Assembly (NCBI RefSeq): GCF_001571005.1
Contig: NZ_BCST01000002.1
Span: forward strand, 186,001-250,000
Length of the DNA: 64,000 nt
Direction of reading: 5' to 3'
Source of the DNA: Herbiconiux solani NBRC 106740
GTDB taxonomy: Bacteria; Actinomycetota; Actinomycetes; Actinomycetales; Microbacteriaceae
Part shown: positions 13,771-24,411 of the stretch, piece after piece
Layout: every line of letters starts with the position of its first letter
Position numbering within the stretch: position 1 is the stretch's first letter
The notes under the pieces: model-generated
Seen by the model: the letters and a program-made list of their open reading frames with translations, nothing else
What the model was told of the DNA's origin: nothing
Databases searched by the model: none
Translations under genes and position numbers: made by a program

Positions 13771-13817
13771 GCTCAGGGCGCCGACGCTCAGCACCCCTCA
13801 GCTCAGTGCGCCGACGC
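13771..13817. repeat. 17-bp direct repeat duplicating the end of the tyrosine phosphatase gene
   Basis: GCTCAGGGCGCCGACGC (13771-13787) and GCTCAGTGCGCCGACGC (13801-13817) differ at one position. The second contains the stop codon of the leftward phosphatase gene (complement of 13803-13805) and its last codons; the first is a downstream duplicate 30 nt away. Confidence 0.75.
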
Positions 13818-14399
13818 CGCCAGCCGCAGCACCCGCGCGACCTCCTCGGCCGCCGGCACGAGCTGGGCGGCCGAGCGCTCGTAGGTCTCGTCGCTCCGGC
13901 GGTAGGGGTCGATCACGTCGTCGTCCTCGCTCGCGATGGGCGGCCCGACCTGGCCCTTCCGGGAGGCGACGAGCGCCACGACCTCGGCGAGGCCCGCACG
14001 GAGGTTCGGCGCCACGGCCGACGCGTCCACGATCGCCGCGTCGTCCAGCCCCTCGGAGAGCCGGGCGAACTCGCGGAGGGTGAAGGTCACCCCGACCTTC
14101 CGGGGCACGAGCTCGACGATCTCGCGCCGATGGCTCCGCGACATGGCGAGCACGAGATCGGCGCCGCCGACGATCGGCTCGGTGAAGTAGCGGGCGCGAT
14201 GCGTGCTCGGGTCGCCGCCGAACCGCACCGAGAGGGCGGCGGCCTGGTCGGGCATCCGGTCGCCCTCGCCGGCGTAGGTGCCGGCGCTGGAGAAGTCGAT
14301 GCCAGGGAGGTCCGCGAGCCGCGCCCGGAGCACCTGCTCGGCGAGCGGCGAGCGGCAGATGTTGCCGGAGCACACGGTGAGAACGGAGAAGTCGGCCAC
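13803..14399 (-). CDS. Low-molecular-weight protein-tyrosine phosphatase
   Basis: The 198-residue enzyme has the P-loop CSGNICRSP at residues 10-18 (Cys10 nucleophile, Arg16) and the general-acid Asp in VIDPYRRSDETY near residue 165. This is the low-molecular-weight PTP/arsenate-reductase fold, slightly longer than usual, with an expanded loop around 95-130. Such enzymes often dephosphorylate bacterial tyrosine kinases controlling polysaccharide export, which would fit the exopolysaccharide genes 11 kb away, but no tyrosine kinase is in the window. The GTG start is preceded by TAGCGT six nt upstream and no Shine-Dalgarno site, pointing to a leaderless mRNA. Confidence 0.88.
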   Translation of the reverse strand: MADFSVLTVCSGNICRSPLAEQVLRARLADLPGIDFSSAGTYAGEGDRMPDQAAALSVRFGGDPSTHRARYFTEPIVGGADLVLAMSRSHRREIVELVPRKVGVTFTLREFARLSEGLDDAAIVDASAVAPNLRAGLAEVVALVASRKGQVGPPIASEDDDVIDPYRRSDETYERSAAQLVPAAEEVARVLRLAASAH

Positions 14400-14405
14400 C
14401 CGTCT

Positions 14406-14411
14406 ACGCTA
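14406..14411 (-). promoter_or_regulatory. -10 box for leaderless phosphatase mRNA
   Basis: TAGCGT on the minus strand ends six nt before the GTG start at 14399. On the plus strand the overlapping TACGCT (14405-14410) could serve the divergent lipoprotein gene, so the two promoters may share one box. Confidence 0.5.
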
Positions 14412-14448
14412 CTGTGTGACCACCTTCACGGCGCACAGGGGGATGACA

Positions 14449-15243
14449 GTGCAAGCGATGCGAGGCGGCCGGCGGGCCCCCACCCGATCGGCGCGGCCGG
14501 CCCTCCTGGGCCTGATCGGGATCGCTCTCGGTTCCCTGCTGCTGACCGGGTGCGTCCCCGCAGGCTCCGGACCCTCGACGTCCGCCGGCGCCTCGTCCAC
14601 GGCCGCTCCGGATGCTGCGCCCGCGCCGGCCACCCCCGCACCGTCTGGCGACCCGGGCCTGGGCGCCACGGTGCCTCCCGGCGGCACGGCCGCCCCTCCG
14701 ACCGAGGCGGCCGCGGCCGGCCCCGCCGGAGCCTCGGTCCCCTACCTCGTGATCGACGCCGGCGCCCTCACGGTCGTCACCGACGCCGGAGCCGTCGACT
14801 ACGGCTACTCCGAGCCTGCGGCGCCCGCGATCGCCGCCCTGACCGCCCTCCTCGGAGCACCGGTCACGACCTACGCCGCACCGGGCAAATGCGAGGCCGG
14901 CTCGACGACGGCCACCTGGTCCTCGCTGAGCATCGACTACCCCGGGCAGGACCCCTCCGCGACGGGCGCCGACTTCACGGTCGTCACCCGCTCCGTGCCC
15001 GCGGCCGGGACGGGCGGGACGCTCGTCGACGTCGTCTCCCCGCACGGGGCCCGCGTGGGCGACCCCTTCGAGACCTACGCGCCCGCGGTCGCCGGAAACG
15101 AGCGGCTCACCGGCTCGACCTTCGACGTGGTCGTCGACACGGTGCGCGACGACACCCGCTCCACCTACGGCGTCGTCGTCACCGCCCAGGACGGCACGAT
15201 CGCCGTCATCGCCGCGCCCGCCGATCTCGCCGCGGACTGCTGA
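14449..15243 (+). CDS. Lipoprotein of unknown function
   Basis: The protein (264 residues from GTG 14449) starts with a basic n-region (MRGGRRAPTR), a hydrophobic core and the lipobox LLTGC, so it is lipidated and held outside the membrane. An Ala/Pro/Thr/Gly spacer of about 60 residues leads to a compact C-terminal domain with two Cys. GTG 14449 is preferred because AGGGGGA lies at proper distance; ATG 14443 would sit directly on that site. The gene is followed after two nt by a membrane GGDEF-like gene, indicating co-transcription. Function unknown. Confidence 0.7.
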   Translation: MQAMRGGRRAPTRSARPALLGLIGIALGSLLLTGCVPAGSGPSTSAGASSTAAPDAAPAPATPAPSGDPGLGATVPPGGTAAPPTEAAAAGPAGASVPYLVIDAGALTVVTDAGAVDYGYSEPAAPAIAALTALLGAPVTTYAAPGKCEAGSTTATWSSLSIDYPGQDPSATGADFTVVTRSVPAAGTGGTLVDVVSPHGARVGDPFETYAPAVAGNERLTGSTFDVVVDTVRDDTRSTYGVVVTAQDGTIAVIAAPADLAADC

Positions 15244-15245
15244 GC

Positions 15246-16421
15246 GTGCTCGATCTCACGATCCTCCTGCCGGCGATGGTGCTCACCGTCGCCGTGCTCG
15301 GCGTGCTCTTCTTCGTCGAGCGGTTCCGCAGCCCGAGCGAGTCGGCGGCGCGGTTCTGGGCCGTCGTCTTCATCGCCGCGAGCCTCAGCACGGTCGCGTA
15401 CTTCGTCGCCGCACGCGCCGACGACATCTGGTGGGCGGTCGCCGTCGGCAACTCGATGATGGTGCTGACACTCGGCGCGCTGTGGATGGGCTGCCGCGCC
15501 TTCAACCGCCGGAAGAGCCCCCTCTGGCTCGTGCTCGGGGTGTGTCTGGTCGTCGCGGTCACGGCGTCCCTGCCCACGGACGCCGGTCCGCGGTGGGCCG
15601 GCGCAGGAGAGAAGATGCTGGCGCTGGCGCTCTTCTCGGTGCTGATCGTCGTCGAGTCGTTGAGACCGCGGCTCCGCACCTTCGTGGGGGCGCGCATCCT
15701 CACCGTCGTGCTCGGGGTGCACAGCGTGTACATCCTCGGGCGTTCGGCCGCGTTCCTGGTGGCCGGCCCCGACAGCGCGGTCTATCAGCGCTTCTTCGGC
15801 ACCGAGTTCGTCTCGGCGATGAATCTCGTGCTCGTCGTCTGCGGCGGCGCCGGCATCATCGTCATCCGGCTGCAGGAGGCGCGTGCCGTCTACACCCGCC
15901 TCGGCGCCGACGGGCACCGGCAGCGTTTCGAGGAGCGGGCCGTGTTCATCCGGCAGGCCGCCTCCCGGCTGGAGGCCCGGGACGACAGTCGCCGTCCCGT
16001 CGTCCTCGTCGCGGACGTCGACCTGCTCGAGCACCTCCGCGGCGCATACGGGGTCGCCCATGCGAACGCGCTGCTCGCCGCCCTCGCCCGCGCGATCATC
16101 GCGAACGTGCCGGACGACGCGCTCCTGGGCCGGCTGCCGGGCGACCGCTTCGCGATCCTGCTCCCGGGCACCGACCTCGACGGGGCCGCGGAGCTGGCCG
16201 AGCGGATGCAGGCCGAGTACCGCGCCGCGACCGCCGACGTCGAGGAGGGCTCGGACGTGAGCTTCGGGCTCAGCCGCTCCCGGCCGCGGAGCGGCACGGC
16301 GCTCGACGACCCGCTGCCCTCAGCGGTGCTGCTCGCCCGCCTGATCGAGTCCGCCGCGGGCGCCCTCGGCCGGGACGCCCGGGACAGGGTCGGCCGGATC
16401 GTGCTCGCCGACCAGCTCTGA
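15246..16421 (+). CDS. Membrane protein with degenerate GGDEF domain
   Basis: The 391-residue protein has about six or seven membrane spans (1-215) and a cytoplasmic GGDEF-like domain (about 245-391). At the signature position it reads GRLPGDRFAILL: the metal-binding GGDEF core is replaced by PGDRF, so diguanylate cyclase activity is unlikely. It may bind c-di-GMP or GTP or act as a scaffold. It is a paralogue of the protein at 23242-24411, with the same topology and a shared segment around GPDS...Q..FG. The GTG start lies two nt after the stop of the lipoprotein gene, so translation is probably coupled. Its 3' end overlaps the convergent TetR gene by 102 nt. Confidence 0.75.
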   Translation: MLDLTILLPAMVLTVAVLGVLFFVERFRSPSESAARFWAVVFIAASLSTVAYFVAARADDIWWAVAVGNSMMVLTLGALWMGCRAFNRRKSPLWLVLGVCLVVAVTASLPTDAGPRWAGAGEKMLALALFSVLIVVESLRPRLRTFVGARILTVVLGVHSVYILGRSAAFLVAGPDSAVYQRFFGTEFVSAMNLVLVVCGGAGIIVIRLQEARAVYTRLGADGHRQRFEERAVFIRQAASRLEARDDSRRPVVLVADVDLLEHLRGAYGVAHANALLAALARAIIANVPDDALLGRLPGDRFAILLPGTDLDGAAELAERMQAEYRAATADVEEGSDVSFGLSRSRPRSGTALDDPLPSAVLLARLIESAAGALGRDARDRVGRIVLADQL

Positions 16422-17294
16422 CGGAGCGGCGTCCGCAGCCGCAGCCGCAACCGCAACCTCGGCCTCCGCCGCCCGCGCCCGCAACGCCGCGACGGTCGCC
16501 GCCGCGTCGTAGTCCGGGTCGGGTTCGAGGAACCGCTCCAGGATGGCGACCAGCGCGATCGCGGGCAGCGACCACTCCGGGTCGTCCGAGCTGATCGTCG
16601 CCGGACCGGCGTACGCCGCATCCACCAGGCCTGGGTTGCCGAGGTGGCGGAGCCCCAGCCCCTCGACCACGGCCGAGATGACGACCGTGTAGGGCCGGTA
16701 GTCACCCTTCCACTCCGCCCGGAGCCGGTAGCCCAGGATCGAGGAGAACCAGTGGTGGAACTCGGCCATCCGCTCGATGAACGAGTCGCTGCCCTCGCGG
16801 AGCGCCCGCTCGATCTCATCGCGGGCCGACCACTCCAGATGGCTGAGGAGGGTGGCCGACAGGCCGACGTAGGACTGCCAGGCGACCGAGGCGATCACGG
16901 CACGGTAGTTGTGCTCGAGCGCGACGCGGATCACCTCGTACATCACCCGGCGCCGGTCGTCCGCGTTCTCGAGCCGGTCGAGGTTGGCGTACAGGATGCT
17001 CTCGCTGAGCTCGAGAGTCTCGTCGTCGGCGAGCTTGTTGGAGGTCTCGGCCGCGATCTCCTTGAGGAGGTCGGTGATGAAGGCGTCCTTGGAATCCCAG
17101 AGCCGGTACGTCGAGCTCCGCGGGACCCCGGCCTCCCGGATCAGGTCGTCCATCACGATGTGCTCGAACCCGATGGTCAAGCCGATGCTCTCGACCCTCT
17201 CGAGAGCGGCGTCGAGAACCCGTCGCCTGACCTCGGATGCGCGGATGCGCGACCGCGGCGTGTGCCGGTCCTCGGCGTCTGGAGAAAAGCTCAC
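16320..17294 (-). CDS. TetR-family transcriptional regulator
   Basis: The N-terminal region carries a TetR helix-turn-helix (VLDAALERV, then MDDLIREAGVPRSSTYRLWD and the Lys/Asp-rich SKDAFITDLL), followed by an all-helical ligand domain. Total length is 324 residues. The GTG at 17292-17294 is chosen because GGAGGT sits six nt upstream; ATG 17307-17309 would make the site part of the coding region. The last 50 residues are Ala-rich low complexity and are encoded antisense to the end of the GGDEF-like gene, which suggests that an original stop codon was lost. It is divergent from the two MarR genes; regulation of these is possible. Confidence 0.75.
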   Translation of the reverse strand: MSFSPDAEDRHTPRSRIRASEVRRRVLDAALERVESIGLTIGFEHIVMDDLIREAGVPRSSTYRLWDSKDAFITDLLKEIAAETSNKLADDETLELSESILYANLDRLENADDRRRVMYEVIRVALEHNYRAVIASVAWQSYVGLSATLLSHLEWSARDEIERALREGSDSFIERMAEFHHWFSSILGYRLRAEWKGDYRPYTVVISAVVEGLGLRHLGNPGLVDAAYAGPATISSDDPEWSLPAIALVAILERFLEPDPDYDAAATVAALRARAAEAEVAVAAAAADAAPSELVGEHDPADPVPGVPAEGARGGLDQAGEQHR

Positions 17295-17411
17295 CAGTGC
17301 ACCTCCCATAGCCCCACGTGTCGTTCGAATGTACCAGCGCGCGCGGTACGGTGATCGTAGGCCGCGACACATCCGGACACGACCGCTAGCCACTCTAGTA
17401 AGCAGTTGGTC

Positions 17412-17417
17412 TACGCT
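17412..17417 (+). promoter_or_regulatory. -10 box for leaderless MarR mRNA
   Basis: TACGCT lies seven nt before the ATG at 17425, and there is no good Shine-Dalgarno sequence, as expected for a leaderless transcript. Confidence 0.5.
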
Positions 17418-17424
17418 TAGTGGG

Positions 17425-17964
17425 ATGAGCACCCAGCGACCCGAGGCCTCACCGCACTATTGGTACGGTGACGAAGCCGACCGCGCGCGCAGCGTCGCCG
17501 TGCTCGAGGCCCTCCGTTCCTACCGTGCCGCCGAGACCGCCATGCGCCGCCGCTCCCAGGAGTCGATGGGAATGGGCGAGAACGACCTGATCGCGATGCG
17601 CTATCTGCTGCGTGCCCAGGAGCAGGGCCGGGCCGTCGGCCCGAAGGAGCTCGCCCAGTACCTCGGCATCACCAGCGCCTCGATCACCGTGCTGCTCGAC
17701 CGGCTCGAACGCAACGGCCACATCCACCGCGAACCCAGCCCGTTCGACCGCCGTGCCCTGATCATCGTCCCGACCGTCCCGACCGACGAGCTCGCCGCAG
17801 CGACCCTCGGCGAGGTGCGCCCCGAACTGGTCGAGGTCGTCGAGCACCTCAGCCCCGAGGATGCGCGGACGATCATCGACTTCTTCGACTCGATGCGGGA
17901 TGCGGTCGACGAGATCGACAACCACGTCGCCCCGCACACCGCCCGGCGCGATGAGCGCGGCTGA
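17425..17964 (+). CDS. MarR-family regulator, first of a tandem pair
   Basis: The 179-residue protein has a winged helix-turn-helix of the MarR type (GPKELAQYLGITSASITVLL, then DRLERNGHIHREPSPFDRRA with the wing). N- and C-terminal helices for dimerisation flank it. It is clearly paralogous to the next gene: both share RSYRAAETAMRRR/RAYRTAEAAMRRR and MGENDLIAMRYLL/MGENDLTALRYLL. The gene overlaps the next by 14 nt. The target genes and ligand are unknown; the divergent TetR gene is the nearest candidate. Confidence 0.85.
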   Translation: MSTQRPEASPHYWYGDEADRARSVAVLEALRSYRAAETAMRRRSQESMGMGENDLIAMRYLLRAQEQGRAVGPKELAQYLGITSASITVLLDRLERNGHIHREPSPFDRRALIIVPTVPTDELAAATLGEVRPELVEVVEHLSPEDARTIIDFFDSMRDAVDEIDNHVAPHTARRDERG

Positions 17965-18433
17965 CCGCGTGGCCTCCCCGCTCGCGGCCGAGGTCCTCAG
18001 TGCGATGCGCGCCTACCGCACCGCCGAGGCTGCCATGCGCCGGCGCACCCGCGAATCGATGCAGATGGGCGAGAACGACCTGACCGCCCTCCGCTACCTG
18101 CTCAAGGCGCAGGGCGAGGGCCGCGTCGTCACGCCCGGAATGCTCGCCGACCACCTGGGCATGAAGTCGGCGTCGGTCACGGTCATGCTCGACCGGCTCA
18201 CCACCTCGGGTCACCTCGACCGTCGGCCGCATCCCTCCGACCGCCGCAGCCTCGCCGTCGTGGCGACCCCGGGGTCCGACGACGAGGTGAGGGCCACGCT
18301 CGGCCGGCTCCACCGCCGCATGATCACCGTGACCTCCCGGCTCGACGAGCAGCAGGCCGAGGCCGTGCGCACGTTCCTGCTCGCGATGACCGAGGCCGCC
18401 TCACAGGTCGACACGACCGACACCGCCGCCTGA
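17951..18433 (+). CDS. MarR-family regulator, second of a tandem pair
   Basis: The 160-residue protein has the MarR winged helix (TPGMLADHLGMKSASVTVML, DRLTTSGHLDRRPHPSDRRS). It aligns along its whole length with the preceding protein, so the two arose by tandem duplication. The ATG at 17951 lies 14 nt inside the end of the first gene, hence translation is coupled. Two paralogues made together could form heterodimers. A 17-bp tandem duplication including the stop codon marks the 3' end. Confidence 0.85.
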   Translation: MSAADRVASPLAAEVLSAMRAYRTAEAAMRRRTRESMQMGENDLTALRYLLKAQGEGRVVTPGMLADHLGMKSASVTVMLDRLTTSGHLDRRPHPSDRRSLAVVATPGSDDEVRATLGRLHRRMITVTSRLDEQQAEAVRTFLLAMTEAASQVDTTDTAA

Positions 18434-18489: not shown

Positions 18490-19623
18490 TCAGGCCAGGC
18501 GCGGCACGTCGAAGTGCACCAGCAGCTCCTCGCCGGCGATCTGCTCGCTGGCGGTGGGGAACATCAGTCTGATCATCCGGATGAACGGCAGCACGTCGGC
18601 CCGGAGCCCGCGCACGTCGTCGCTCGAGCACCGCACCATGGCGAACCGGTCCTCCTCGCCCTCGATCAGCTCGAGCACGATCGAGCCCGGACGGGTGAGT
18701 GGTGAGGCCTCCAGCGCCGCCAGCAGCGCCCGGATCGTGGCCCGGTCGTCCTCGTGCAGGCGCAGCGAGAGTGCGCTCTCGTCGACGAGCACGCCGACGT
18801 GGTCGCCCAGCGAGTCGGCTTCCCCGGCGCGCACGAGCGCGGTGTGCAGTGCGGTCGCGAGCGCGCCGGCGGTCACGCGGTCCTCCACCGTCAGGGTACC
18901 CGCCATCCGCAGCCGGGCCAGGAACGGCACGACGTCGCTGCGCAGACCGCCCACCTCGCCGATCACGTCGTCGTCGACGAACTCCTGCCGAAGGCGGTCG
19001 AGCTGATCGTCGCGCTGCTCGGCCTGGTCGATGCGCTCGGCGTAGATGTCGAGCACCAGCGACCGCGCGTACGCGACCGCCCCGAGACCCATCGCGAGAG
19101 CCGGGGCGATCGCCACCAGCAGGATGACCGGGGCCGGCACGACCTCGCCGAAGCCGGTGAACAGGTGCAGCACGGTCAGGAGCGCCGAGAGACCGACGGC
19201 CACGCCCGTGTAGGTGCCGAGCTCGACGTGGGTGCGGAACGGCGCCGCCGCCATCAGCACCAGACCGATCGTCAGCAGTCCCCAGTCGTCCCGCACCGCG
19301 GAGTTGGTGCCGACGCAGCTGAGCGAGTTCAGCACCGCGGCGATCGCGACGAGGGCGAACGAGGTCGCGAACCGGTCGCTCGTGACGCCGGAGTCGAAGC
19401 GGAAGGCGCTCCGGATGAACCAGGCGAATCCCCCGGCCAGCGCTACGATCGCAGCGATCGCCAGCGGCCAGGAGGAGACCTGGCCGGCGGTCGCGATCGT
19501 CAGGCCGATGCTGCACGTGATCGAGACGACGGCCACGACGACCAGGAAGCCCCGGGCGCTGATCGAGGCCAGCGGGTCCAGTTGCAGCGCCGTCGTCCCC
19601 CGCGGCGGCCTGAGGGGCCTCAC
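18490..19623 (-). CDS. Membrane protein with degenerate kinase-like cytoplasmic part
   Basis: The 377-residue protein has about seven membrane spans (25-210), a coiled-coil-like stretch (ERIDQAEQRDDQLDRLRQEF) and a soluble C-terminal part of about 145 residues. In that part, AGTLTVEDRVTAGALATALH resembles the segment preceding the ATPase domain in actinobacterial sensor kinases, but neither a phosphorylatable His nor the ATP-binding boxes are visible. The GTG start overlaps the stop of the kinase-like gene (GTGA) with GGGAGG upstream. It is thus the third gene of a tightly coupled operon (response regulator, kinase-like protein, this protein) and probably a partner of that membrane complex. 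Confidence 0.75.
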   Translation of the reverse strand: MRPLRPPRGTTALQLDPLASISARGFLVVVAVVSITCSIGLTIATAGQVSSWPLAIAAIVALAGGFAWFIRSAFRFDSGVTSDRFATSFALVAIAAVLNSLSCVGTNSAVRDDWGLLTIGLVLMAAAPFRTHVELGTYTGVAVGLSALLTVLHLFTGFGEVVPAPVILLVAIAPALAMGLGAVAYARSLVLDIYAERIDQAEQRDDQLDRLRQEFVDDDVIGEVGGLRSDVVPFLARLRMAGTLTVEDRVTAGALATALHTALVRAGEADSLGDHVGVLVDESALSLRLHEDDRATIRALLAALEASPLTRPGSIVLELIEGEEDRFAMVRCSSDDVRGLRADVLPFIRMIRLMFPTASEQIAGEELLVHFDVPRLA

Positions 19624-20822
19624 CGGTCGCCTCCCGGCACCGTCATGAAGACCGCCGTCCCGGCGCCCGGCCGGGTCCAGATCTGCACCGAGCCGCCCAC
19701 CTCGACGATGCTGTCGACCACGATCATGCGAAGGCCCACCGTGTCGTCGCCGGTCGCGTCGACGTCGAAGCCGGTGCCCGCATCCGAGACCATCACGCTG
19801 AGCTCGGGCGGGCTGGACATCACCGCGATGTCGGCCTCGCGCACACCGGAGTGCCGCAGCACGTTCTCGAGGCACTCGGTCATCGCCCGTTCGAGGCTGC
19901 GGGCCACCGAGGCGGAGACGCCGTTGACCGCCTCGACGTCACCGGTGACGCGCAGCTGCAACCCCTTCTGCTCGGCGTCGCGCACGACCGTCATGAGCAG
20001 CGGCGCCTTCGACAGCGAGCGCGCCGCGGCGCCCGCGGAACCCGGGCCGGACAGCACCGGGCCGATGTCGGCGAGGTTCGCGAGGTCACGGTCGATCGCC
20101 TGCAGCTGGTCGTCGCGGAGCGGGCCGGGAGCGCTCTGCGCGAGGGCCCGGAGGTCGGCGAGCACGTTCTCCTGCACCCAAGCCGAGGCGGTGTCCGCGA
20201 ACCGGGCGATCGCCACGTCCCGCTCCTCGGCGAGCGCCGCGGTCGACATCACGGCCGTGCCGCGGGCGGCGTCACGGCGCCCGAGCCAGAGGGCGGAGAC
20301 GAACAGGCCCAGCGCCACGAACGAGGTCACGACCGGCACGTCGATCGCGAGCGGCATGCCGGACTGCCAGGCGGCCACCTGCACGAGCCCGGGCCCGGCC
20401 ACGAAGGCGAGCGACCCGAGCGTGATGGCCTTGCCGAGCGAGCGGGCCGGGATGCCCACCACCAGCACCGCGAACTCGGGCATCGAGAGCAGCACGTAGT
20501 CACTGGAGGGCGTGCTCCCCGGGACCGTCACGGAGACGGCGGTCGTCACCGCGGCGTAGAGGTAGAGACCAGCGCAGGCCACGAGCGTGGCCCCGACCGC
20601 CCAGACGAACGATCGCGCCCGGAGGGCCGCGATCACGCCGGCGGCCACCACGACGAGCCCGGCGAGGGAGAGGAGGATCTCCAGGTGCCCGGTGACCGGG
20701 ATGAACAGAGCCGCGATCAGGAAGGTCGCGCCGAGGAAGACGGAGGCGAACCAGGTCCCTCCCCGGGCGAGGGCACGGCTGGTGGCGACGCCGTCGACGT
20801 CGGCGGCGATCTGCAGGGTCAT
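19620..20822 (-). CDS. Sensor kinase-like membrane protein lacking the phospho-accepting His
   Basis: The 400-residue protein has about seven membrane spans (15-190) and a C-terminal HATPase_c domain. N box (ALERAMTECLENVLRHSG), G1 box (VSDAGTGFD) and a G2-like VGLRMIV are present, so ATP binding is plausible. In NarL/LiaS-type kinases the dimerisation helix reads ER.RIARELHD; here it reads EERDVAIARFADTASAW, with no His anywhere in the linker helices. Classical autophosphorylation therefore seems impossible. The ATG overlaps the stop of the response regulator gene (ATGA). It may control the regulator by other means, or a His from another protein may be used. Confidence 0.8.
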   Translation of the reverse strand: MTLQIAADVDGVATSRALARGGTWFASVFLGATFLIAALFIPVTGHLEILLSLAGLVVVAAGVIAALRARSFVWAVGATLVACAGLYLYAAVTTAVSVTVPGSTPSSDYVLLSMPEFAVLVVGIPARSLGKAITLGSLAFVAGPGLVQVAAWQSGMPLAIDVPVVTSFVALGLFVSALWLGRRDAARGTAVMSTAALAEERDVAIARFADTASAWVQENVLADLRALAQSAPGPLRDDQLQAIDRDLANLADIGPVLSGPGSAGAAARSLSKAPLLMTVVRDAEQKGLQLRVTGDVEAVNGVSASVARSLERAMTECLENVLRHSGVREADIAVMSSPPELSVMVSDAGTGFDVDATGDDTVGLRMIVVDSIVEVGGSVQIWTRPGAGTAVFMTVPGGDR

Positions 20823-21475
20823 GCCAGGTAGCCGTCCTCGGCCGCCCGGAGCGCGAGATCCTGCTTGCGCTCGGCGACCCGGCCCTCCGACGCGTACTGC
20901 TCGCGCACGCGCTCGAGCGCGTTCTTCACGGCCTGGATGTTGGTGCCGAGGATCATGGCCACCTCGACCGGTGTGTGGCCCGAGACGTAGAGGCGGAGCG
21001 TCTCCTCCTCCTCCTCGCTGAACCGGATGCTCGAGGTCATCACCCGCGGCCCGCCCCGGTCGGGCTCGTCCCACGCCACGACGGATCCCGTCTGCCCGCC
21101 GAGCACCGCGCGCACGGCGTCGAGCAGGTCGGTCGCCGGCTGGGCCTTGGAGACGAACGAGGCGGCGCCGGCGTCGAGCACCCGGCGGATCGTCTCCGGC
21201 GCATCCAGGGCGCTCATCACGACGACGGCCGCGCCCACCGAGCGGCAGATGCGGATGCGCGCCTCGACCGAGATCGGCTCCTTCAACTGCAGGTCCATCA
21301 GCACGACCTCCGGCGGGAAGGCCGGGTGGCGCACCGCCTCGACCCACGAGGTGGCGCGGATCGTGACGTCGAGGTCGGGCGCGTTGCCGCTGATCCAGTT
21401 CGAGACGCCGTCGAGGATGAGCGCGTGGTCGTCGACGATCGCCACGGTGTGCGGCACCGGGTTGCGCGCGTTCAC
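20819..21475 (-). CDS. NarL/LuxR-like response regulator
   Basis: The 218-residue protein has a complete receiver: acidic pair in VAIVDDHALI, phosphorylation site Asp in VVLMDLQL, Ser in VVVMSAL and Lys in FVSKAQP. A LuxR-type helix-turn-helix variant follows (SEEEEETLRLYVSGHTPVEV, ILGTNIQAVKNALERV). The receiver looks functional although its partner kinase lacks the His. It is the first gene of the operon RR / kinase-like / membrane protein. GTG start at 21473-21475, with GGAG 11 nt upstream. It is divergent from a complete sensor kinase gene at 21567, which could be its true phosphodonor. Confidence 0.85.
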   Translation of the reverse strand: MNARNPVPHTVAIVDDHALILDGVSNWISGNAPDLDVTIRATSWVEAVRHPAFPPEVVLMDLQLKEPISVEARIRICRSVGAAVVVMSALDAPETIRRVLDAGAASFVSKAQPATDLLDAVRAVLGGQTGSVVAWDEPDRGGPRVMTSSIRFSEEEEETLRLYVSGHTPVEVAMILGTNIQAVKNALERVREQYASEGRVAERKQDLALRAAEDGYLA

Positions 21476-21566: not shown

Positions 21567-23201
21567 ATGAGCAGGGGGAGCGACTTCACCGAGGCGGAGC
21601 GGCGCTCCCGCTTCGACCGGGCCGTCTTCCAGTCGCAGCTGCTGCTCGCGGCCGCCCTTCTCCTGATGGTCTGCGCGGCCTACATCTTCCAGCCCACCGC
21701 GGTGCTCGACCCCCGGTTCTTCGGCGGGGTCGCCGTCGTCTTCGTGCTCACGGCCGCCTCGGCGCTCGTGCCCTGGTCGAACTTCCCGCGGCAGTGGGCG
21801 GGGATCCTCCCGCTGATCGACATCTTCGCGATCATCGCCGTCCGCGAGGGCAACTCGCAGCTCGGTGCCGGACTCCTGCTGGTCTTCCCGGTAATCTGGC
21901 TCTCCAGCTACTTCGGGCTGCTCGGCGCGATCGTGAGCGTCGTGACCAGCTCGGTGCTGCTCTGGATCACCGCGGGGCTGGCCGGCGCACCGCTCGTGAT
22001 CAACAGCATCCCGTCCCTGCTGGTGCTGCCCATCACCCTCTCGTTCATCGCCACCACCACCCTCGCGACCTCCAGCCGCACGGCCGCCCAGCGCGGTCTC
22101 CTGCGCCAGCAGGCCGACCTGCTCGAGGTGGCCCTCCGCCGGGCCCGCCGGCAAGAGCAGACGCTCGACGAGGTGCTCAACGCCGTCACCTTCGGCGTGG
22201 TGGCCTTCGACAAGAACGGCGTGCAGACCATCGTCAACCGCGCCAACCGCGCCTACCAGACCGAGTTCGGGCTCCCCGAGTCGACGATCGAGCATCCCGT
22301 GCTCTACAGGCCCGACCGCGTGACCCCGTACGCCGATGACGAACGACCGTTCGCCCGAGCAGTTGGGGGCGAGCGGTTCGACGACACGGTGACCTGGCTC
22401 GGCGAGCCCGGTCAGCACCGCATCGCTCTCTCGGTCAGCTCGCGGCCCCTCACCTCCCCCGACGGCGAACTCGACGGCGGCGTGATGGTCTCCCGCGACG
22501 TGACGGCCGAGATCAACGCCATCCAGGCCCGCGACGATCTGGTCGCCTCCGTGTCGCACGAGCTCCGCACCCCGCTGACCTCGATCCTCGGCTACCTCGA
22601 GCTCGCGCTCGACGACGAGCAGCTCGACGCGACGACGCGCTCGATGCTCGAGGTCGCGTCCTCGAACGCCGACCGCCTCCTCGCCTTGGTCGCCGACCTC
22701 CTCACCGCGGCGAGCGAGAAGGACCAGCAGATCGTGATGTCGTTCTCGCAGTGCGACCTCTCCGAGATCGTGGCGCAGTCGATCCAGGCCCAGACGCCGG
22801 CGGCGGCCGAGCGGGGCATCACGATCGAGAACGCCTCCCTCGAGCCGGTGCTGATCGAGGCCGACGGCTTCCGCCTGCGCCAGGTCGTCGACAACCTGCT
22901 GACCAACGCCATCAAGTACAACGTCGAGAACGGGTCGGTGACCGTGGCGGTCGCCGCCGCGGACGAGCGCGTCGACCTGGTCGTCAGCGACACCGGCATC
23001 GGCCTCAGCGACCTCGAGCAGTCCAAGCTGTTCGACCGGTACTTCCGCGCCGAAGGGGTGCGGCAGTCGACCATCCACGGCTCGGGACTCGGCCTCACGA
23101 TCAGCCGCGACATCGTGCGCCGGCACGGCGGCGACCTCACGGTGACCAGCAGTCTCGGCGTCGGAACGCGATTCACCGCATCCATCCCCCGCTCGCGCTA
23201 A
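21567..23201 (+). CDS. Membrane sensor histidine kinase with PAS domain
   Basis: The 544-residue kinase has about six membrane spans (20-185), a coiled coil (RQQADLLEVALRRARRQEQT), a PAS-like domain (about 205-320) and a complete catalytic core: His331 in SVSHELRTPLTSILGY, N box DNLLTNAIKYN, G1 DTGIGLS, F box LFDRYFRA and G2 GSGLGLTIS. Unlike the neighbouring kinase-like protein it should autophosphorylate. No response regulator gene follows it; the divergent regulator at 20819 or the OmpR-type regulator at 27056 are candidate partners. The start looks leaderless (TACCCT six nt upstream). Confidence 0.9.
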   Translation: MSRGSDFTEAERRSRFDRAVFQSQLLLAAALLLMVCAAYIFQPTAVLDPRFFGGVAVVFVLTAASALVPWSNFPRQWAGILPLIDIFAIIAVREGNSQLGAGLLLVFPVIWLSSYFGLLGAIVSVVTSSVLLWITAGLAGAPLVINSIPSLLVLPITLSFIATTTLATSSRTAAQRGLLRQQADLLEVALRRARRQEQTLDEVLNAVTFGVVAFDKNGVQTIVNRANRAYQTEFGLPESTIEHPVLYRPDRVTPYADDERPFARAVGGERFDDTVTWLGEPGQHRIALSVSSRPLTSPDGELDGGVMVSRDVTAEINAIQARDDLVASVSHELRTPLTSILGYLELALDDEQLDATTRSMLEVASSNADRLLALVADLLTAASEKDQQIVMSFSQCDLSEIVAQSIQAQTPAAAERGITIENASLEPVLIEADGFRLRQVVDNLLTNAIKYNVENGSVTVAVAAADERVDLVVSDTGIGLSDLEQSKLFDRYFRAEGVRQSTIHGSGLGLTISRDIVRRHGGDLTVTSSLGVGTRFTASIPRSR

Positions 23202-23241: not shown

Positions 23242-24411
23242 GTGACGCTGGACATGACCACGCTGCTGCTCATCTCGGGGCTCATCGTCATCCTGTGCGG
23301 CATCTCGTTCATCCTGAACACCGCCATGCGGCGGAACGACGCCTCGGGGCGGCTCTGGAGCATCTCGTTCATCGCGGGCATGCTGACCGCCCTGTCGTTC
23401 GCGGTCTGGGGCTTCTCGCCGCACCTGTGGTGGATCCTGGTCACCGGCAACGCCGCCTACGTCGTCTCGGTCGGCGCGATCTGGTCGGGCGCACGCGTGT
23501 TCAACGGCCGCTCGTCGTACATCTGGATCCCCCTCGCCGCCGGCGTCGCCACGGCCGCCCTGACCCTCCTCGAAGGCCAGTCCGCGGGCATCTGGACGGG
23601 GTCGACCCCGCTGTTCATCGGTGTCGCCGCCTTCTCCGGGCTCGGTGCGGCCGAGACCATGCGATCCCGGATGCGGCGCAACCTGAACGCGCGCATCCTC
23701 AGCTTCTGCCTCTGGATCGTCTGCGCCTACTACGTGCTGCGCAGCTCGGTCTTCGTCACGATGGGGCCCGACTCCCCGATCTTCCAGCAGTACTTCGGGT
23801 CGGCGATCACCACGATCATCACGATCCTCCTCGTGCTGCTCGGCACGATCTCGATGTCGATCCTGCAGGCCGAGCGCTCCGGCGCCCGCGCGCTCGGGGA
23901 TGTGACGGTCGGCGTGCACTCCGTGGTCGGCGTGCTGTCGGCGACCTCGTTCATGCAGCAGTGGGCCGACTGGGTCGAGCGCGCCTCGTTCCACGGCGAC
24001 CGTCTGGCGATGATCGCGATGGATGTCGACAACCTGCCCCAGATGAACACCGCGTTCGGCCGCACCTTCGGCGACACCGCGATCCGTTCGGTCGCGCAGA
24101 TCATCCGCCACCACGCGCCCACCGACTCGCTGCTCGGCCACACGGGCGCGGGGCGCTTCGTGATCGTCGTGGTCACCGCCTCCACCAACGACGCCGAGCA
24201 CCTCGCCATCCGGCTGCAGACCGCGCTGGTCGACGAGCCGATCGACCCGCAGCAGTCGCTCCGCGCCACCGCGAGCTTCGGCGTGGTCGACACCGACACC
24301 TTCGGCTACGGCCTGCCGGTGCTCCGTCGCGCGCTCGACGACACGACCGCGACGGCCCGCGACGAGGGCGGCAACCGCATCGTCGTCGGTAAGGCCCCCA
24401 CCCCGGCCTAG
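23242..24411 (+). CDS. Membrane protein with degenerate GGDEF domain (paralogue)
   Basis: The 389-residue protein repeats the architecture of the product of 15246-16421: about six or seven spans (5-215) and a GGDEF-like domain (about 235-389). Asp of the substrate region is kept (AMDVDNLPQMNTAFG), but the signature reads GHTGAGRFVIVV instead of a GGDEF core, so cyclase activity is doubtful. GPDSPIFQQYFG matches GPDSAVYQRFFG of the paralogue. GTG start with GAAGGAG at ideal spacing. It lies 40 nt after the sensor kinase gene and may be co-transcribed with it. A c-di-GMP-binding or inactive regulatory role is an inference. Confidence 0.78.
   Translation: MTLDMTTLLLISGLIVILCGISFILNTAMRRNDASGRLWSISFIAGMLTALSFAVWGFSPHLWWILVTGNAAYVVSVGAIWSGARVFNGRSSYIWIPLAAGVATAALTLLEGQSAGIWTGSTPLFIGVAAFSGLGAAETMRSRMRRNLNARILSFCLWIVCAYYVLRSSVFVTMGPDSPIFQQYFGSAITTIITILLVLLGTISMSILQAERSGARALGDVTVGVHSVVGVLSATSFMQQWADWVERASFHGDRLAMIAMDVDNLPQMNTAFGRTFGDTAIRSVAQIIRHHAPTDSLLGHTGAGRFVIVVVTASTNDAEHLAIRLQTALVDEPIDPQQSLRATASFGVVDTDTFGYGLPVLRRALDDTTATARDEGGNRIVVGKAPTPA

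Follow-up and report, generated by a model that had tools for sequence, protein, structure and literature searches.

Pseudokinases take part in several described two-component systems. In the FasBCA system of Streptococcus pyogenes, two-hybrid data point to pairing of the two kinase-like proteins as a heterodimer, with one partner proposed to be a pseudokinase (PMC12675982). RocA, a pseudokinase with six spans, modulates the membrane kinase CovS and interacts with it, its own histidine (His) being dispensable (PMC7028121). In Corynebacterium glutamicum, a ChrS pseudokinase was obtained whose regulator is phosphorylated by the paralogous HrrS, and the native kinases heterodimerise (PMC9491836). 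In DivL of Caulobacter, Tyr replaces His; the protein lacks kinase and phosphatase activity but binds a regulator, and ATP seemed to promote DivL-DivK binding (PMC4211667). The present analysis concerns a three-gene operon from Herbiconiux solani NBRC 106740, encoding a response regulator (RR), a kinase-like membrane protein (K) and a second membrane protein (P3). The window is the whole stretch of 64,000 nucleotides (nt) analysed, G000:C2:186001-250000, where G### denotes a genome, as L### does a locus and g## a genus.

The explanation favoured here, with a little better than even confidence, is that the operon derives from a kinase/pseudokinase pair in which phosphotransfer has been dismantled more than once within one genus, leaving an ATP-binding pseudokinase pair. 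The gene order on the minus strand is RR, K, P3, and the coordinates bear out the 4-nt overlaps between neighbours (ATGA, GTGA) given in a preliminary description of this DNA. The operon encodes two kinase-like membrane proteins and a regulator, the term "kinase-like" resting for P3 on its predicted fold. Its features are as follows.

20819..21475, minus strand: RR (P0001, 218 amino acids), receiver residues D15, D16, D61, S88 and K110 intact; Response_reg expectation value (E) 1.3e-10.
RR residues 151-218: C-terminal, DNA-binding, sigma70-r4/LuxR-like output domain; Sigma70_r4_2 E 0.0067, under its cut-off.
21293..21295, minus strand: D61 of RR, the expected phosphorylation site; Q in G093.
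19620..20822, minus strand: K (P0002, 400 amino acids), with about six membrane helices (judged by eye on the model), His-free dimerisation helices and a Bergerat ATPase domain (N, G1 and G2 boxes).
20172..20174, minus strand: codon 217 of K (CAG, Gln), the phosphoacceptor position; His in 9/16 orthologues.
19863..19865, minus strand: N320 of K, N-box; kept in 16/16 orthologues.
19782..19784, minus strand: D347 of K, G1 box; kept in 16/16 orthologues.
19734..19736, minus strand: G363 of K, G2 box; kept in 16/16 orthologues.
18490..19623, minus strand: P3 (P0003, 377 amino acids), partner of K, with about six membrane helices (counted by eye where the model is of low confidence) and a cytoplasmic part predicted to be kinase-like but degenerate.
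18940..18942, minus strand: R228 of P3, opposite the K phosphoacceptor site in a whole-length profile alignment (LRSDVVPF against LHDTVL).
18493..18813, minus strand: P3 residues 271-377, a predicted alpha/beta sandwich like the catalytic and ATP-binding (CA) domain of kinases, without N, G1 or G2 boxes and without an ATP lid.
21567..23201, plus strand: P0004, a divergently transcribed neighbour encoding an intact PAS-HisKA-HATPase kinase; a possible alternative phosphodonor.

The K gene is present in all 16 Herbiconiux genomes surveyed, with open frames for both K and P3 in each. In the window, the phosphoacceptor site aligns as V-Q217-E-N-V-L (WVQENVL) with the HD-type H-box L-H-D-T-V-L (WLHDTVL) of relatives. 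The preliminary description had quoted residues 199-215 and expected the His at A209, eight residues short of the true site, Q217. It was nevertheless right that the dimerisation helices contain no His, since H46 and the N-box H324 are the only ones in the protein; relocation of the His within K was ruled out for the window in this way. Nine orthologues retain the phosphoacceptor His (G199, G200, G202, G203, G204, G206, G209, G210 and G155). Seven do not, and have instead Gln in the window, Thr in G208, Asn in G093 and G205, Ala in G207, and Gly in G201 and G011. With seven species affected and five different codons at the site, a recent single-strain mutation or sequencing error was ruled out. 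In the window and G208 the two residues after the site have also changed.

The N-box, G1 and G2 residues of the ATP site are intact in 16/16 Herbiconiux K proteins (N320, D347, G349, G351 and G363 in the window), and HATPase_c, the only Pfam model to reach its cut-off for K, matches with an E of 1.9e-7, so that the ATPase boxes reported earlier are indeed kept. The His is retained at 96 of 100 other K-P3 loci, of which 98 came from a search with P3 and two are paralogues in the window genome; of the roughly 123 matches of that search, counted by eye, about 20 were left out. It is replaced by Arg in G026 and by Asn in three g78 species, and all four lack an RR gene beside K. The G2 Gly was lost in two of these 100 loci and the N-box Asn in two. 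L099 and L100 (g8) show the reverse erosion, with the His kept, the G2 box lost (and in L100 the N-box Asn too) and no adjacent RR gene. In L096 (G090) a frameshift splits K on a short contig, which is either an assembly error or a broken gene.

Paralogous K proteins in the Herbiconiux genomes have the His in 26/26 readable copies (four of them also counted among the 100), against 9/16 at the window locus (Fisher p 4e-4, uncorrected for kinship). Across the HisKA_3 family, 56 of 16,025 domains (0.3%) lack it, according to a review (PMC12632262). The preliminary description had reckoned that homologues in which the His and the HD motif are preserved would point to a recent single-strain mutation or a misread alignment. 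Such homologues exist, and the alignment was indeed shifted, but the loss is not confined to one strain. Because intact-His, HD-bearing homologues occur at this position, K descends from an ordinary kinase. It is a DesK-like kinase by descent that, in the window, lacks the His expected of one. In structure, the K model (mean predicted local distance difference test score, pLDDT, 62) has DesK (3gig) as its best Foldseek match (E 6.6e-7) and the DivL structure as its second, and matches the VraS CA domain with a TMt of 0.75. Pfam HisKA_3 was unmatched by relatives of K, His-bearing ones included, in both sets scanned (0/12 and 0/15 members).

The losses do not fall in one clade. An unrooted locus tree of K, P3 and P0004 from the 16 Herbiconiux contains a branch (84/89) that parts the seven His-less and two RR-less species from the seven fully intact ones, and a single clade of His-less species was rejected on it (approximately unbiased test, p-AU 0.017). 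The same clade was rejected on rpoB/rpoC DNA (p 3.8e-8), where G093 groups with G206 and G210 and G011 with G207 and G201 (100/100 each); G208 covers just 12% of the columns of this tree. The best rpoB/rpoC tree does not contain the group of nine species seen on the locus tree, yet that group was not rejected (p 0.076). A single loss in the genus is rejected on both trees, provided that His was never regained. On that proviso there were at least two losses in Herbiconiux, as well as one in G026 and one in g78, the deeper branches being weak. Regain in the G206/G210 line is possible, through one base change (AAC to CAC).

Both membrane proteins remain constrained. Among His-less species, the ratio of nonsynonymous to synonymous substitution rates (dN/dS) of K was 0.21-0.26 in the clade G201/G207/G011 and 0.27 in the pair G208/G205, with 0.13-0.31 across the five His-bearing pairs tested. 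In g78, which has Asn for His and no adjacent RR gene, values were 0.18-0.24 for K and 0.17-0.24 for P3, and in G206/G210, from whose genomes RR is gone, they were 0.127 and 0.118. Four further locus pairs gave 0.08-0.34. Judged by these ratios, K and P3 are both maintained by purifying selection. K thus has what defines a pseudo-histidine kinase, as far as sequence can tell: kinase descent, a lost catalytic residue and a protein kept under selection.

In some species the regulator has been eroded or lost in its turn. RR has the DD-D-S/T-K receiver pocket and the output domain of a response regulator, and all its receiver residues are retained, as first reported. In G206 and G210 the gene is missing genome-wide; relocation was ruled out, as the best match (33%) is a paralogue found in other genomes too. 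In G208 the acid pair of the receiver is broken and the Ser lost, and in G093 the acid pair, phospho-Asp and Ser are lost. Mean dN of the receiver is 0.44 in G208 and 0.47 in G093, against 0.17-0.24 in the other 12 species, and that of the DNA-binding domain 0.10 and 0.12, against 0.06-0.10. From this pattern, the G208 and G093 regulators look like phosphorylation-free DNA-binding proteins. The pocket is intact in five of the seven His-less species, and because it is intact in the window, the window RR may still receive phosphate from some donor. In L155 (G101), with the order K-P3-RR, K looks intact and the RR pocket is partly eroded (the Lys and acid pair are unrecognisable). Judged by the parts that are missing, the phosphate link is severed at different points in different species.

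These results suggest an ancestral three-part module of Microbacteriaceae, comprising a six-span DesK-like kinase K, a NarL-type regulator and a pseudokinase-like P3. The sequences show that K of the window and of six more Herbiconiux species has lost the His and kept the ATP site, so that neither K nor P3 is equipped there for normal phosphotransfer. Regulation without normal phosphotransfer, as proposed in the preliminary description, is well supported for K and P3 by the non-clade losses, the retained ATP site and purifying selection. We infer that K and P3 form a membrane hetero-complex, as reported for FasB-FasC and RocA-CovS, whose ATP-bound state and contacts may control the regulator or another kinase. 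Action by contact is perhaps ATP-gated, by analogy with DivL-DivK, and ATP sensing by the module is possible. Any phosphate on the regulator would presumably come from elsewhere, for instance from a paralogous kinase pair or from P0004, which adjoins the module in 16/16 Herbiconiux (in L081 a contig end cuts P0004). Tentatively, the change may have been stepwise, the K-P3 pair being first freed from the phosphate link, and the His, the pocket or the whole regulator then lost by species while the pair still signals by ATP-gated contacts.

P3 was found in at least 101 of 199 Microbacteriaceae genomes with one query. In an order-level draw, at least 11 of 297 genomes matched P3 among the best six candidates per genome, 10 of them in Microbacteriaceae. 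K adjoins P3 on the same strand in 116/116 loci, although nearly all of these were selected through a P3 match and the gene pairing is only suggestive of a heterodimer. RR is adjacent to the pair, upstream or downstream, in 82/116, the remaining 34 including a few near contig ends. The overlap of RR with K is not a general feature and, with the starts chosen, occurs in only 3 of the 14 RR-holding Herbiconiux loci (the window, L087 and L089). In five RR-less loci of g78 and g79 (L126, L131, L133, L134 and L160) the K-P3 pair lies directly upstream of a gene that by eye is thymidine kinase-like, and in L126, L131 and L133 that gene begins at the P3 stop codon. Because this thymidine kinase-like gene comes next, the RR-less g78 pairs do not have an eroded RR concealed right behind P3.

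P3 is probably a pseudokinase, on the basis of its modelled fold, its layout and its operon partnership. Residues 271-377 were modelled with a block pLDDT of 74-92, and the best Foldseek matches are mostly kinases, DesK foremost (best kinase E 3.8e-3). The eroded cytoplasmic part ascribed to P3 in the preliminary description is favoured by the predicted fold but not by sequence profiles, and P3 lacks the sequence evidence expected of a kinase homologue. No Pfam model reached its cut-off for the window P3; in 18/18 members of the family scanned with Pfam there was no kinase match and no common family, just scattered weak hits, and a sequence search against solved structures found nothing. For the window, supply of the missing His by P3 was ruled out as a specific compensation, as H290 (codon 18756..18754) occurs in every Herbiconiux P3, whether the species is His-bearing or His-less, and no P3 of the 16 has a His opposite the H-box. 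All 16 share this His followed by EDDRA, which the seven other-genus rows compared lack.

Herbiconiux genomes also hold paralogous modules. Type 2 is an orphan K-P3 pair (for example G000:C10:62378-63580, L092) found in 11/16 genomes, its absence from the other five having been verified by a dedicated search. Its K has the His in 11/11, and no RR was found beside the pair; three of the 11 loci are short-flanked, with no RR relative near them. Type 3 comprises K, RR and a middle gene found weakly by the P3 profile (in G200 not at all), and its K has the His in 15/15 readable copies (that of G204 is cut short). The window RR is intact in 11/11 species with type 2 against 1/5 without; these five comprise two with eroded receivers, two with no RR and G205 with an intact pocket (Fisher p 0.0027, uncorrected for kinship).

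Several observations weigh against the reading of a dismantled kinase/pseudokinase pair. The association of type 2 with an intact RR is a single contrast on the locus tree, and because of this it is not independent evidence. G205 has neither the His nor a type 2 pair, yet its RR pocket is intact, albeit with a receiver dN (0.24) that is the highest among intact pockets. For P3, Foldseek ranks a designed protein first (E 2.7e-3), and no match falls below 0.001. Sequence comparison does not demonstrate homology of K with P3. A whole-length profile match between them (probability 88-93) was set aside after it failed a C-terminal test with shuffles and a second comparison: with the membrane helices excluded, the score for the C-terminal profiles was 17.4 and shuffles reached up to 16.8, and direct comparison of the two proteins gave a probability of 3.3. 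L101/L104, outside the genus, with the His kept and no RR, gave a dN/dS of 0.67 for K and 0.61 for P3, although at 44% identity these values are perhaps unreliable. Lastly, several species that lack the His or RR show mildly more change in the dimerisation region and less of it in the membrane and ATPase parts; the comparison, with three intact species as reference, is only suggestive, but could be a sign of slow decay.

Rewiring, an unlikely alternative, would make the type 2 K the phosphodonor of the window RR, with the window K as its heterodimer partner or scaffold, as proposed for ChrS/HrrS. Type 2 has a His-bearing K but lacks an RR, and the window has an RR but lacks the His. The RR pocket is intact in all four His-less species that hold type 2, and four of the five species without type 2 have an eroded receiver or no RR. 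The laboratory case of ChrS/HrrS shows, by analogy, that such rewiring can work. However, the single change on the locus tree and the intact RR of G205 count against this explanation too, the type 2 K is just 32% identical to the window K, and type 3 kinases and P0004 are also candidate donors.

It is rather doubtful that K and P3 mainly serve another partner, for instance in membrane-state sensing, RR having always been a dispensable branch. The 34 loci without an adjacent RR are consistent with such a role, as is the purifying selection that persists both in G206/G210 without RR and in g78 without the His or an RR beside K. On the other hand, RR is adjacent in most loci and no alternative partner was identified, and the K His persists in 28 of the 32 pairs without RR that lie beyond the 16 orthologues, which suggests that these pairs probably still phosphorylate something.

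A dedicated phosphatase, with the window K stripping RR of phosphate placed by another kinase or by acetyl phosphate, is improbable. It would fit the acidic residue that follows the His site in all His-less orthologues (Asp in 5/7, Glu in 2/7), and the intact pocket in five of the seven. DxxxQ is a phosphatase motif, but by eye its Gln is missing even in His-bearing relatives. A phosphatase also leaves unexplained the eroded receivers of G208 and G093, and g78 and G026 with no RR beside K. The review cited above (PMC12632262) bears on both sides, as the His is seemingly uninvolved in HisKA_3 phosphatase activity but phosphatase action is disputed as a general role of pseudo-kinases. Decay of a locus heading for loss, with a meaningless missing His, would account for the different parts missing in different species (His, receiver pocket, RR gene), but open K and P3 frames and intact ATP-site residues in 16/16 and a dN/dS far below 1 after the losses make it very improbable.

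Around the operon, GGDEF frames flank the signalling cluster at window positions 13806-16421 and 23242-24411, both on the plus strand, the true start of the first lying inside the frame. Beside P3, positions 16320-18433 encode a tandem of two MarR-type regulators, together with a TetR-type one on the minus strand whose match is weak (E 0.0071). In G026 (L094) a gene that by eye is TetR-like likewise follows P3.

Histidine kinases without the His are rare, and their origin and remaining role are poorly known. Among close relatives, one orthologous module occurs in intact, His-less, receiver-eroded and regulator-less forms, and because of this the question can be tested by ordinary genetics in environmental bacteria. 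P3 is also described here as a partner family widespread in Microbacteriaceae. If the stepwise reading is true, one genus displays, in living species, a two-component system turning into a phosphotransfer-free device. Within the literature searched, no paper joined Herbiconiux, two-component and histidine kinase, and none was found to describe a genus in which the His was lost repeatedly and the ATP site retained. To call this an undescribed signalling system, as was proposed at first, is too strong for the class, as kinase/pseudokinase pairs are known; the module does offer a natural series of versions unusually good for experiment.

Set beside the systems introduced above, the module resembles FasBCA in layout, where one operon likewise encodes a regulator and two kinase-like proteins of six spans each. 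FasC has a working His (H246) and FasB a kinase domain, whereas here K of the relatives has both and P3 neither, and in the window there is no His in either protein. RocA is an accessory to a complete system and its action requires CovS activities; in contrast, the P3 gene adjoins K, and the window K has no His. The ChrS pseudokinase arose by a frameshift in the catalytic domain during laboratory evolution, keeping an unneeded His, whereas here the His was lost and the ATP site kept, in nature and more than once. DivL has PAS domains and acts via DivK on CtrA control; unlike DivL, the present proteins vary by species in the residue at the site, and a second kinase-like gene adjoins. With DesK and HisKA_3 kinases the module shares the predicted fold of K, less surely that of P3, and the HD at the H-box of relatives, but Pfam HisKA_3 is unmatched even by relatives that bear the His. 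With these differences, the module works like known two-component systems that contain a pseudokinase.

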